DNA of 64,000 nt from Planctomyces sp. (GTDB lineage: Bacteria; Planctomycetota; Planctomycetia; Planctomycetales; Planctomycetaceae), in the NCBI GenBank assembly GCA_019636235.1, contig JAHBXW010000005.1, positions 124,001 to 188,000 on the forward strand, read 5' to 3'. The notes beneath the pieces were generated by a model. The model had not been told where the DNA came from and ran no database searches. It saw only the letters and a list, made by a program, of their open reading frames with translations. Both the position numbers and the translations under genes were made by a program. Shown in pieces: positions 4,359 to 8,726 of this stretch (its first letter is position 1; every line of letters starts with the position of its first letter).

Positions 4359-5327
4359 GTGCCGCTGCACGATCTCGGGTATCGACGCTGGGACGGAGAA
4401 CTGAACCCGCAGTGGACCCGGTGGTGGGTCATTGCGCAGACGGGGATCCGACTGTCGTGGCGCAGCCGCTGGCTGCGGCGGATGCTGACGCTGGCCTGGC
4501 TGCCGGCGATCCTGTTCGGGATCGCGGTGTTCACGCTGGAGAACGCGATCGGCCGTTCGGCCGACATCGACATGGGCCTGCGGGTGCTGTCGAATCATTT
4601 TCCCATCACGGACGAGCTGCGGGAAGAAGTCCGCCGAGACCCCTCCCAGGCGCGCAGCACGCTGTGGGCGTTGATCCTGCTGTCATTCTTCCGAATCCCG
4701 CAGGGGTTTCTGATCGTGATGCTGACGGCGCTGATCGCTCCGCCGCTGATCGCTCAGGACATTCGATCGCGGGCCTACCTGCTGTATTTTTCGCGGCCCA
4801 TCACACGGCTGGAGTACGTGTTCGGCAAGCTGGCGACGGTGGCGGCCTACCTGTCGATGATCACGCTCGTGCCGGGCGTCGTCCTGTATCTGCTGGGGGT
4901 GGGTCTGTCGCCGAGCCTGTCGGTGGTCGCGGACACGTGGGACCTGCCGTTGCGGGTGGTGGCGGCGTCGGTGGTGGTGATCATTCCGACGGCGACGTTC
5001 GCGCTGTGCCTGTCATCGCTGCTGGCGGAAAGCCGGTACGCGACGTTCTGCTGGTTCGTCCCCTGGGTGCTGGGCTGGTTCGCGTTCATGGCGATGACGG
5101 CCATGACCGAGCAGGCGGCGTACATGCAGGGCCAAAGCGAGGTGGTGCGCAGCGGGAAGTGGTCGCTGCTGTCGCCGTACCACGCGCTGGGGGACGTGGA
5201 GACATGGGTTTTCGGCCTGGAGTCAAACTTCGGACGGGTGGCGCCGCAGGCGCTGATGCTGAGCCTGGTGACGCTGATTTCCATGGGCGTCCTGCTGCGT
5301 CGCGTCGTGGCGCCGATGCGGGTGTGA
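4359..5327 (+). CDS. ABC transporter permease (ABC-2 type)
   Basis: The 322-residue protein has about six hydrophobic segments, at roughly residues 45-65, 110-135, 165-190, 205-230, 235-255 and near the C-terminus. It has no periplasmic binding or ATPase domain. It starts at a GTG with GTGAGG seven bases upstream. The order permease, ATPase, permease over 4359-7244, with 61 bases and then a 4-base overlap between genes, is that of an ABC-2 type exporter. The long hydrophilic stretch between the first two segments (about residues 65-105) lies outside the membrane. The substrate is unknown. Confidence 0.85.
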   Translation: MPLHDLGYRRWDGELNPQWTRWWVIAQTGIRLSWRSRWLRRMLTLAWLPAILFGIAVFTLENAIGRSADIDMGLRVLSNHFPITDELREEVRRDPSQARSTLWALILLSFFRIPQGFLIVMLTALIAPPLIAQDIRSRAYLLYFSRPITRLEYVFGKLATVAAYLSMITLVPGVVLYLLGVGLSPSLSVVADTWDLPLRVVAASVVVIIPTATFALCLSSLLAESRYATFCWFVPWVLGWFAFMAMTAMTEQAAYMQGQSEVVRSGKWSLLSPYHALGDVETWVFGLESNFGRVAPQALMLSLVTLISMGVLLRRVVAPMRV

Positions 5328-5388
5328 CGCAATTCCCGCGGCCGTTCAGGCCGCAGGCACAGGTTGGCCGCAACAGATCGCCTTACGC

Positions 5389-6321
5389 ATGATCGAACTG
5401 GATGGCGTCACGAAGCTGTACGGGACGGTGATCGGCGTGAATGACATCACGCTGACGCTCGAGCCCGGCGCGCATGGCTTGCTGGGGCCGAACGGCTCGG
5501 GGAAGACGACGTTCCTGAACCTGGTGACGGGGCAGCTCCGCCCCACGCGGGGTGACGTGACGGTGTTCGGCGATTCCCCCTGGGACAACGCCGACCTGTA
5601 CCGCCGGATCGGCGTCTGCCCGGGATTCGAGGGTCTGTACGCCGACATCTCCGGGTTCGACTGGGTCCGCTACCTGATGCAGTTGAACGGCTTCAGCCCG
5701 CGTGAGGCGCGTCGGAGGGCCGAAGACGCGCTGGAGGTCGTGGGCATGACGCGATCCATGCACCGCTCGATGGGGTCGTACTCCCGGGGCATGCGGCAGC
5801 GTACCAAGCTGGCTCAGTCGATCGCGCACGAGCCGGAGCTGATCATTCTGGACGAGCCGTTCAACGGACTGGACCCGGTCGGCCGGCACGACATCACCCA
5901 GGTGCTCAAGGACTGGATCAAGTGCGGCGGAAGCGTGATCATCGCCAGTCACATCCTGCACGAAGTGGAGTCGCTGGCGACGTCGTTCCTGTTGATCTGC
6001 GGGGGGCGGCTGCTGGCCTCGGGGACGCCGGTCGAGGTGCATTCGCTGCTGACGGACCTGCCGAACGAGTTTCAGATCCGGGGCGAAGGGATGCGGACCC
6101 TGGCGACCCGGCTGGTGGAGGAGAAGCTGGTCGATTCGCTGCGGTTCGAAGGGGACGGCGAGCTGACGGTCACGACGCACAAGCCGCTGCTGATGGCGGG
6201 ACGCCTGCCGGAGTGGAGCCGCGACGGGACGATCCGCATCACCGAGATGACGAGCGGGGATGACTCGCTGCAGGACCTGTTTACGACGCTGATGCGAATT
6301 CATCGCGGAGAACTTCGATGA
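5389..6321 (+). CDS. ABC transporter ATP-binding protein
   Basis: The 310-residue ATPase has Walker A GPNGSGKTT near residue 35, the signature-type sequence YSRGMRQRTKLAQS near 130, and Walker B LIILDEPFNGLDP near 150, followed by the switch His in IIASHILHEVE. The last ~90 residues are a C-terminal extension typical of export-type ABC-2 ATPases. It should energise the permeases encoded on either side. Its stop codon overlaps the start of the next permease (ATGA), so the two are probably translationally coupled. Confidence 0.93.
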   Translation: MIELDGVTKLYGTVIGVNDITLTLEPGAHGLLGPNGSGKTTFLNLVTGQLRPTRGDVTVFGDSPWDNADLYRRIGVCPGFEGLYADISGFDWVRYLMQLNGFSPREARRRAEDALEVVGMTRSMHRSMGSYSRGMRQRTKLAQSIAHEPELIILDEPFNGLDPVGRHDITQVLKDWIKCGGSVIIASHILHEVESLATSFLLICGGRLLASGTPVEVHSLLTDLPNEFQIRGEGMRTLATRLVEEKLVDSLRFEGDGELTVTTHKPLLMAGRLPEWSRDGTIRITEMTSGDDSLQDLFTTLMRIHRGELR

Positions 6322-7244
6322 GCGCTGCTGGCCAGCCCGCAAGTCCCCAGTCCGACGCGGCCGATCCGGGCTGGACGATGCTGTCGCCCGCGGAATCGCA
6401 GCCGGCGCAGCTGTCGCAGTTGGCACGCAGCGCGTGGACGGTGTTCCGGTTCGAATTCGGGCGTTCGGGGACGCTGAAACGTTCGTTGATCTGGCTGGCG
6501 GTGGCGGCGTTTCCGACGCTGATCTTCGGGATGATGCGGTGGACGGCCGGAAGCCTGCCGGGTCCGGCCTGGACGTGGCTGTTGTTCATCATGGTCGTCG
6601 AGATGGTGGTGCTGCTGAACGCGCTGCTCTGGGTGGCGCCGCTGGTGCAGGCCGAGCTGGAAGGCAAGACCTGGCTGTACGTGGTGACGCGCCCGTTCGG
6701 CCGCTATGCGCTGGTCCTGGGGAAGGGGATGAACGGCCTGGCGTGGACGCTGGGCGCCGGCTGGTGCGCGCTGCTGGGCGCGCTGCTGGTGTCGTCGCTG
6801 CGGGCCACCGAGTCGGTCAACACGCCACACTTCGGTCCCGGCATCGCGATGACGACGGGCGTGACGGCGCCGCTGCAGATTGGCGGCGTGATGCTGGCGC
6901 TGACGGCGTTGTCCAGCCTGGCCTACTGCTCGTTGTTCTCGGCGATCGGCTGCATGTTTCCAAAACGGGCCATGCTGATCGCGTTCAGCTACACGCTGGT
7001 GGGCGAGCTGCTGGTGGGCATGATGCCGGCGATCGTCAATCGACTGACGGTGCAGTACCACCTGCGCTGCCTGCTGACGGACTGGGTGGGATTCGAGATT
7101 TCACCTGAGGGGCGGACGTTCCTGTTCAGCGAGTGGTCGCCCACGACGCACGTGTTGTGGATCGTGTGCATGGCGGCGATCTGGCAGGCGGTGGCGCTGG
7201 TGACGGTCCACTTCCGACAGTACGTGGTGTCGGACGAAAGCTGA
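6318..7244 (+). CDS. ABC transporter permease (ABC-2 type), second subunit
   Basis: The 308-residue membrane protein has a ~60-residue cytoplasmic N-terminus and about six transmembrane segments. The first two are around residues 58-75 and 82-110; others lie near 140-165, 190-215, 225-245 and 275-295. It begins inside the stop of the ATPase gene and ends the operon. With the product of 4359-5327 it probably forms a heterodimeric exporter channel. Nothing in the sequence identifies what is exported. Confidence 0.85.
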   Translation: MSAAGQPASPQSDAADPGWTMLSPAESQPAQLSQLARSAWTVFRFEFGRSGTLKRSLIWLAVAAFPTLIFGMMRWTAGSLPGPAWTWLLFIMVVEMVVLLNALLWVAPLVQAELEGKTWLYVVTRPFGRYALVLGKGMNGLAWTLGAGWCALLGALLVSSLRATESVNTPHFGPGIAMTTGVTAPLQIGGVMLALTALSSLAYCSLFSAIGCMFPKRAMLIAFSYTLVGELLVGMMPAIVNRLTVQYHLRCLLTDWVGFEISPEGRTFLFSEWSPTTHVLWIVCMAAIWQAVALVTVHFRQYVVSDES

Positions 7245-7277: not shown

Positions 7278-7754
7278 TCACCGGACCGGACGATGCTCGC
7301 GCGCATAGCCCGTATCGTCCCGCAACGCCCGCTTGTTGTCCGCCAGCCGCTGCCGGATGCGCTCCACCGTGTTCCGCACCGGCGCCGACAGAATCTGGAT
7401 GATCTGCTGCGGGCTGAACTGCTCCAGCTCGCCGACCGTATCGACGCGCAGGAACTCGAAGATCTGCCGCGCGTGATAATCCTCTTTGAACAGCATGTAG
7501 AGCTTTTCTTCCGCGCGGACGAGCGGGCGTCCCAGCGATTCCGCGGGCCGGGCGGCTTTGGCGGGCTTCTTCGGGGCGGCCGCTTTGACGCGTCGCGGGG
7601 CCGGTTTCGCCGTTTTGGGCGAAGTCGTTCGCCCCTTCGCCGCCGCCTTCTTCGCGGGCTTCTTGACGACGGCCTTTTTGACGGCGGTCTTCTTCGCCGG
7701 CCGGACGGGCTTCTTCGCGGTCGACCGGGGGGCGGGACGGGCTTTGGGAGGCAT
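7278..7754 (-). CDS. Histone-H1-like Lys/Ala tail joined to an RpoA-CTD-like helical domain
   Basis: In this 158-residue protein, residues 1-72 are almost only Lys, Ala, Pro, Arg and Thr in KKPAKKAAAK-type repeats, like bacterial histone-H1/AlgP tails. Residues 77-146 form a compact helical domain containing FEFLRVDTVGELEQFSPQQI and then RNTVERIRQRLADNKRAL. The spacing resembles the helix-hairpin-helix C-terminal domain of RNA polymerase alpha, where 'tVgeL...s.eeL...kn.G.kSleEik..L' binds DNA and activators. The usual conserved Gly before the last helix is replaced. A role in DNA or transcription is inference. It is monocistronic, convergent with the ABC operon and divergent from nif3. Confidence 0.8.
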   Translation of the reverse strand: MPPKARPAPRSTAKKPVRPAKKTAVKKAVVKKPAKKAAAKGRTTSPKTAKPAPRRVKAAAPKKPAKAARPAESLGRPLVRAEEKLYMLFKEDYHARQIFEFLRVDTVGELEQFSPQQIIQILSAPVRNTVERIRQRLADNKRALRDDTGYAREHRPVR

Positions 7755-7901
7755 CGGCCTTCAGCTCCTCGTGAGGGATCGACGCAGTCTGTCACGCGCC
7801 GCGCGGCTTCACAACCACGAAGCCCGGCGCGCTGCGCGGCGGTTGAAACTTCAGACCGCGACACTCGATGATTCGGACATTCCCTCCGAAAGCCTCCGCC
7901 C

Positions 7902-8726
7902 ATGTCCCAGCCCGCCATCACAGTCGGCGAACTCGCCGACGTCCTCGACCAGCTGGCTCCGGCGTTCCTGGCCGAGTCATGGGACAACGTGGGCCTGCTG
8001 CTGGGCGATCGCGCCGGGCCCGTGCGGTGCGTCATGACCTGTCTGACGCTCACGGAGGATGTGGCCGCCGAAGCCGCCGGCGAGCAGGTCGACCTGGTGG
8101 TCACGCACCATCCCCTCCTGTTCAAGGCGGCCAAGCGAATCACCTCCGAAACTCCCGAGGGGCGGACGCTGTTGACGCTGATGGGCTCTCGGATCGCGGT
8201 CTACAGCCCGCACACGGCATTCGACAGTTCGCACGAAGGCATCAACGAGCAGCTCGCCGCGGCGCTGGGGCTGGCGGGAACATCGCCGCTGCGGCCGGCG
8301 ACGGCGGGCGAGCACGAACCGTCGTCTCCACGCGCGGGCGGAGGGCGGTTCGGAACGCTGGACCAGGAGCGATCTCTCAGCGAGTTCCTGGCGCTGCTGC
8401 GTGAGCGTCTGCCGGCGGGCGTGATCGGCTACACGGGCGAACTCTCGACGACGGTTCGCCGCGTGGCGGTCGCGTGCGGCGCGGCGGCCGAGTTCCTGGA
8501 GGATGCCGCCGCCCGGAATTGCCATGTCCTCGTCACGGGAGAAGCGCGGTTTCATGCATGCCTGGAGGCGCGGGCCAGGGGCATCGCCCTCGTGCTGGCG
8601 GGACACTACGCCACCGAACGTCCCGGCGTGGAATGGCTGGCGGAGCAGATCGGCCGCCGGTTCCCCCCGCTGACCGCCTGGGCCAGCCGCGTGGAAACCG
8701 ATCCCCTGCAATGGAGCCTGCCGTGA
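7902..8726 (+). CDS. Nif3-like dinuclear metal centre protein
   Basis: The 274-residue protein belongs to the Nif3/YbgI (GTP cyclohydrolase 1 type 2-like) family, which forms toroidal hexamers with a two-metal site. Recognisable blocks are AESWDNVGLLLGD near residue 25, the metal-binding VVTHHPLLFK near 66-75, AVYSPHTAFDSS near 105, and the C-terminal GHYATERPGVEWLA near 235. The length matches the short form without the PII-like insertion. The cellular role of the family is still unclear. The downstream DUF983 gene overlaps its stop codon, suggesting co-translation. Confidence 0.93.
   Translation: MSQPAITVGELADVLDQLAPAFLAESWDNVGLLLGDRAGPVRCVMTCLTLTEDVAAEAAGEQVDLVVTHHPLLFKAAKRITSETPEGRTLLTLMGSRIAVYSPHTAFDSSHEGINEQLAAALGLAGTSPLRPATAGEHEPSSPRAGGGRFGTLDQERSLSEFLALLRERLPAGVIGYTGELSTTVRRVAVACGAAAEFLEDAAARNCHVLVTGEARFHACLEARARGIALVLAGHYATERPGVEWLAEQIGRRFPPLTAWASRVETDPLQWSLP

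Follow-up and report, generated by a model that had tools for sequence, protein, structure and literature searches.

The DNA that we analysed, a 64,000-nucleotide stretch of a Planctomyces sp. contig (hereafter, the window), encodes a protein, F, of a family not yet described; F is probably not an ordinary promoter-binding domain but a docking protein anchored to the chromosome. F joins an H1-like basic tail to a domain that is predicted to adopt the fold of the C-terminal domain of the RNA polymerase alpha subunit (alpha-CTD) and that, judging by its conserved residues, appears to be devoid of the known DNA, sigma and activator surfaces of that fold. In about half of the genomes that encode F, it is directly preceded by a second lineage-specific gene, P, whose product is a candidate partner.

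The F gene and its basic tail

F is a minus-strand open reading frame with an ATG start (window positions 7278-7754; 158 aa and the stop codon), taken from the ORF list and its translation. We consider that F looks like a real gene because an RBS-like GAGGAG (7765-7770, minus strand), read from the sequence, lies 10 nt before the ATG, the codons of the conserved domain display coding periodicity (GC of 0.71, 0.37 and 0.86 by position), and orthologs are present in 82 of 170 species of a planctomycete family, both the tail and the domain being retained in all of the 53 non-redundant members examined. F is a single gene flanked by an ABC-transporter cluster in convergent orientation (4359-7244, plus strand) and a divergent DUF34/NIF3 gene (7902-8726, plus strand), and no RNA element was found at the locus in Rfam. 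The cluster is of the ABC-2 type; besides a permease and an ATPase, it encodes a third protein (6318-7244) that has no match in Pfam.

The initial annotation described residues 1-72 as a Lys/Ala/Pro, H1-like tail, and this description holds. Lys accounts for 25% of the segment (codons 1-72; 7539-7754, minus strand), Ala for 26%, Pro for 18% and Arg for 10%; its computed pI is about 12, and it thus has the long, very basic, low-complexity character of the AlgP/H1 type. A comparable tail, often beginning with MAKKK, accompanies the domain in 53 of 53 non-redundant family members examined (median pI of about 12; median length 81 aa, the lengths being approximate because start codons were picked by a simple rule). 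Taken without the tail, the domain is acidic in many members (overall pI range 5.0-9.8), so that the tail fits as the conserved basic part of the protein. Similarity searches with the tail detected no further proteins with such a tail in the same genome, within the sensitivity that its low complexity allows.

From this composition and the precedent of AlgP, we infer that the tail binds DNA. Lysine-rich tails bind any polyanion, and the ligand could instead be RNA, the ribosome or polyphosphate, not the chromosome. AlgP itself associates with polyphosphate granules (PMC9239181), but the neighbourhoods examined showed no association of F with RNA or polyphosphate genes, and the domain fold is, by descent, a transcription/DNA fold; we regard a ligand other than the chromosome as quite improbable and retain DNA as the presumed target of the tail.

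A predicted alpha-CTD fold in the conserved domain

The remainder of the protein (codons 73-158; 7281-7538, minus strand) is a conserved domain of ~75 residues, an alpha-CTD-like helix-hairpin-helix by hhalign, AlphaFold, Foldseek and VIA. Its core, residues 77-142 (7329-7526), aligns to residues 249-312 of E. coli alpha. The domain contains the two stretches quoted in the initial annotation, RVDTVGELEQFSPQQI (residues 103-118) and ERIRQRLADNKRAL (residues 131-144). Single-sequence searches of Pfam, NCBIfam, PHROGs and PADLOC yielded no meaningful match for F, and neither F nor any of 14 family members reached the PF03118 cut-off; in its own genome, PF03118 matched only rpoA and a TPR protein. 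Comparison of the F family with 52 planctomycete alpha-CTDs using hhalign gave 89.8%, with a score of 34.0 over 49 columns. This resemblance exceeds chance, given that none of 200 column-shuffled alpha-CTD alignments scored above 20.1 and that the reversed alignment gave 9.4. Among other helix-hairpin-helix groups, DUF4332 scored 29.4 (28 columns), leaving a modest margin for alpha-CTD, other HHH_5 23.8 and RuvA 15.8.

Searches of whole genomes with the family profile also gave weak matches in six genomes (E 3e-5 to 7e-4), all in frames of 464-559 aa; the loci retrieved place them on the more C-terminal end of a TPR-alpha-CTD protein, in its alpha-CTD. In the reverse direction, an alpha-CTD profile run against a mixed ORF set recovered many F members in register among the next matches, at E >= 0.5. 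The TPR protein itself (~430-560 aa) carries two tandem alpha-CTDs with R265 and G296 intact and recurs across the phylum sample beside a copy of rpoA; its locus in the source genome is G000:C23:238142-238597 (minus strand), and in many genomes a RuvA-type HHH_5 match is located nearby on the same contig.

Structure prediction points to the same fold. Two AlphaFold models were built, each resting on a two-sequence alignment. The model of the window domain, made with one ortholog, reached a pLDDT of 64, and its top five VIA matches were alpha-CTDs (Z 7.1-6.1), followed closely by SAM and RAD51-type domains (Z 5-6). The model of the ortholog L004 (~40% identical) was better (pLDDT 86.6, pTM 0.77): Foldseek ranks 1-22 were all alpha-CTDs or RNA polymerase alpha chains, with probabilities up to 1.00 and E-values above 0.01, and VIA superimposed it on alpha-CTD with Z 9.3 and 1.3 A over 64 residues. 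The five-helix helix-hairpin-helix arrangement of alpha-CTD is present in the L004 model and is weaker in that of the window domain. A SAM or a RAD51-type helix-hairpin-helix fold is rejected, given that with the well-modelled ortholog these domains score distinctly lower than alpha-CTD (Z 6.3 at most, the RAD51-type rows included, versus 9.3). Structure prediction and profile comparison together support the assignment of an alpha-CTD fold to the F domain, and the likeness noted by eye in the initial annotation, including the register that it implied, proves to be correct at the level of the fold.

Some further matches were examined and set aside. AlkA_N (E 0.0014; 3 of 14 members) is taken as a chance match because it has neither structural nor profile support, and the matches of the domain profile to La-related protein 4 (0.022) and MalT (1.2) in an hmmsearch against PDB sequences are short and discordant and are likewise attributed to chance.

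Loss of alpha-CTD contact residues

In the structural register, the F family lacks one residue of alpha-CTD before helix 1 and has one extra before the hairpin. The DNA-binding residues of alpha-CTD (R265, N268, N294, G296, 298 and E302) are replaced throughout the F family. R265 and G296 are each present in 52 of 52 planctomycete alpha-CTDs and in none of 53 F members (R265 being mostly E, H or Q), N294 in 52/52 versus 2/53, and E302 in 51/52 versus 0/53, with R in 50 of the 53. At alpha position 304, the F family has an invariant Arg. Where alpha-CTD has its NxGxxS hairpin, the F family has a conserved APxxQTV. The E. coli alpha positions that presumably contact sigma (259/261) and activators (273, 286/287 and 317) are not kept in the F family alignment either. 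These changes suggest that the domain lacks the known DNA, sigma and activator surfaces of alpha-CTD, so that the initial proposal of a DNA- or sigma/activator-binding CTD-like domain does not carry over from the fold. With these contact positions not kept, the accompanying suggestion of a global transcription modulator is no more than possible.

Two alternative readings bear on these residues. Helix-hairpin-helix folds commonly bind DNA, and F could be a nucleoid-associated protein, both halves of which bind DNA, compacting it like H1 or AlgP, with a new basic face formed by R132, R134 and K135 of the last core helix together with R142. R134 and R142 are invariant, R132 is found in 50 of 53 members, and alpha position 299, the Ser299 equivalent, stays Thr or Ser in 49 of 53. 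Against this, the fold has lost all its canonical minor-groove contacts, many members have an acidic domain (pI 5.0-6), and an invariant Arg may equally be structural; we consider binding of DNA by both halves rather unlikely. Alternatively, F could be an alpha-CTD mimic that modulates transcription, binding sigma, RNA polymerase or activators with its tail on DNA. The fold is that of alpha-CTD, in matching register, and the nearest sequence matches are alpha-CTDs, but this mimicry would have to operate without the sigma and activator positions just listed, and no RNA polymerase or regulator gene is linked to F in the neighbourhoods examined, so that we view it as unlikely. The reading that we prefer, a domain that docks a protein while the tail holds DNA, is developed below.

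Distribution of the F family

An initial search of 59 relatives identified the F domain in 13 genomes, all from one GTDB family, most likely the Planctomycetaceae, and a 14-sequence profile of the F family was then used in wider genome searches. Strong matches (E < 1e-18) were obtained for 82 of the 170 species of that family and, in both the class-wide and the phylum-wide samples, were confined to it; outside the family, these samples gave weak matches only, on alpha-CTDs. No relatives of F were found in viral contigs. Across the 53 non-redundant members, the invariant residues are G75, F89, D92, F101, L102, L110, E111, P125, R134, L137, A138, R142, L144, D147 and A151. One genome contains a truncated second copy of the F domain, in an 80-aa frame (G526:C24:23740-23913).

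A lineage-specific neighbour of F

In 36 neighbourhoods, P, a protein of about 215 aa, is the only gene that recurs widely beside F; no other conserved neighbour recurs widely across genera. Of the 82 F genomes, 40, from 10 of 29 genera, have P immediately upstream of F in the same orientation, with coding gaps of about 20-270 bp in the loci examined. F is thus often in a putative operon with P. Adjacency in ten genera argues for a functional link, with the proviso that genomes are not independent samples. P is encoded in 148 of the 170 genomes from the GTDB family, whereas no genome of the class sample outside this family has it; P is therefore a candidate for a signature protein of this lineage. 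It has no matches in Pfam, NCBIfam, PHROGs, PADLOC or PDB sequences, and hhalign detected no kinship to F or to alpha-CTD.

The pairing is not obligatory. Most genomes without F still encode P, and in about ten F genomes no P was detected, so that neither gene strictly needs the other. Where F is absent or elsewhere, the neighbours of P vary, and in the source genome itself, the two genes are not adjacent, P being on another contig (C4:117181-117795).

A proposed role for F

We tentatively propose, at slightly less than even likelihood, that F is a nucleoid-anchored adaptor, which binds DNA with its tail and docks a protein with its alpha-CTD-fold domain. The tail, disordered and rich in Lys, Ala and Pro, would hold F on DNA without sequence specificity, as suggested by its composition and by the tails of AlgP, PhaF and H1; tethering by a tail of this kind has precedent in AlgP and PhaF (PMC9239181). 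Given the loss of the DNA-binding residues, the C-terminal domain would most likely be used to dock a protein or for self-association. The leading candidate partner is P, for which the genomic linkage is observed and a physical interaction is presumed; the likely outcome would be that P, or its cargo, is tethered to the nucleoid, with an effect on nucleoid organisation or transcription. Against the adaptor role, invariant R134 and the mostly conserved R132, both on the last core helix, could provide a new surface for binding DNA, P is not strictly tied to F, and the two genes lie apart in the source genome.

A more far-reaching version, which we consider rather doubtful, is a lineage-specific two-gene system in which an alpha-CTD-type domain left the polymerase, lost its grip on DNA, gained an H1-like tail and now recruits P to the nucleoid, that is, an undescribed class of chromatin adaptors. 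Planctomycetes are known for condensed nucleoids. Whatever its role, F appears to represent the alpha-CTD fold re-used outside the polymerase, with its DNA surface erased and an H1-like tail added, in half of the sampled species of a planctomycete family. P, near-universal in this GTDB family and unmatched in the libraries of families and structures that were searched, is the candidate partner, and this makes the F-P pair directly testable.

Comparison with known systems

Free-standing alpha-CTD-like proteins (PRK07758 and phage proteins) and H1-like tails are known. The F family is filed outside PF03118 and is undescribed: the literature searched gave no account of such a tail joined to an alpha-CTD fold in planctomycetes, and neither there nor in the libraries did we find a description of this architecture, of an erased DNA surface, of confinement to one planctomycete family or of the pairing with P.

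DUF4332 (PF14229), also a helix-hairpin-helix domain, is the second-best profile-profile match of F, but the match is shorter and scores below alpha-CTD, and single F members reach only E 0.073. AlgP, PhaF and chlamydial Hc1/Hc2 share with F a long, basic, disordered Lys/Ala/Pro-rich segment (for AlgP, see PMC9239181). The tail is N-terminal in F and C-terminal in AlgP, and the globular part has an alpha-CTD fold in F, whereas that of AlgP is a predicted alpha-helical N-terminal domain for which an alpha-CTD fold is not reported.

PRK07758 (NF005841, 95 aa) resembles F in having an alpha-CTD-like domain outside RNA polymerase; the NF005841 model hits a genuine alpha-CTD at 1.5e-9 and, weakly, three F members (best 0.024). 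Phage proteins annotated as 'RNA polymerase, alpha subunit, C-terminal' are also free-standing and alpha-CTD-like, and match the F-family model by Foldseek. Unlike F, the PRK07758 and phage families have no Lys/Ala/Pro tail, as far as tested. The closest known relative in structure is alpha-CTD itself (PF03118), including the tandem alpha-CTDs of the planctomycete TPR proteins, with the same fold and helix order as F. In contrast to the alpha subunit, which in the source genome is encoded by a separate rpoA gene on contig C5, F has no alpha N-terminal domain and gives no score against PF03118 in single-sequence HMM searches; it is a small protein with a basic tail, in which R265, N294, G296 and E302 have been lost.
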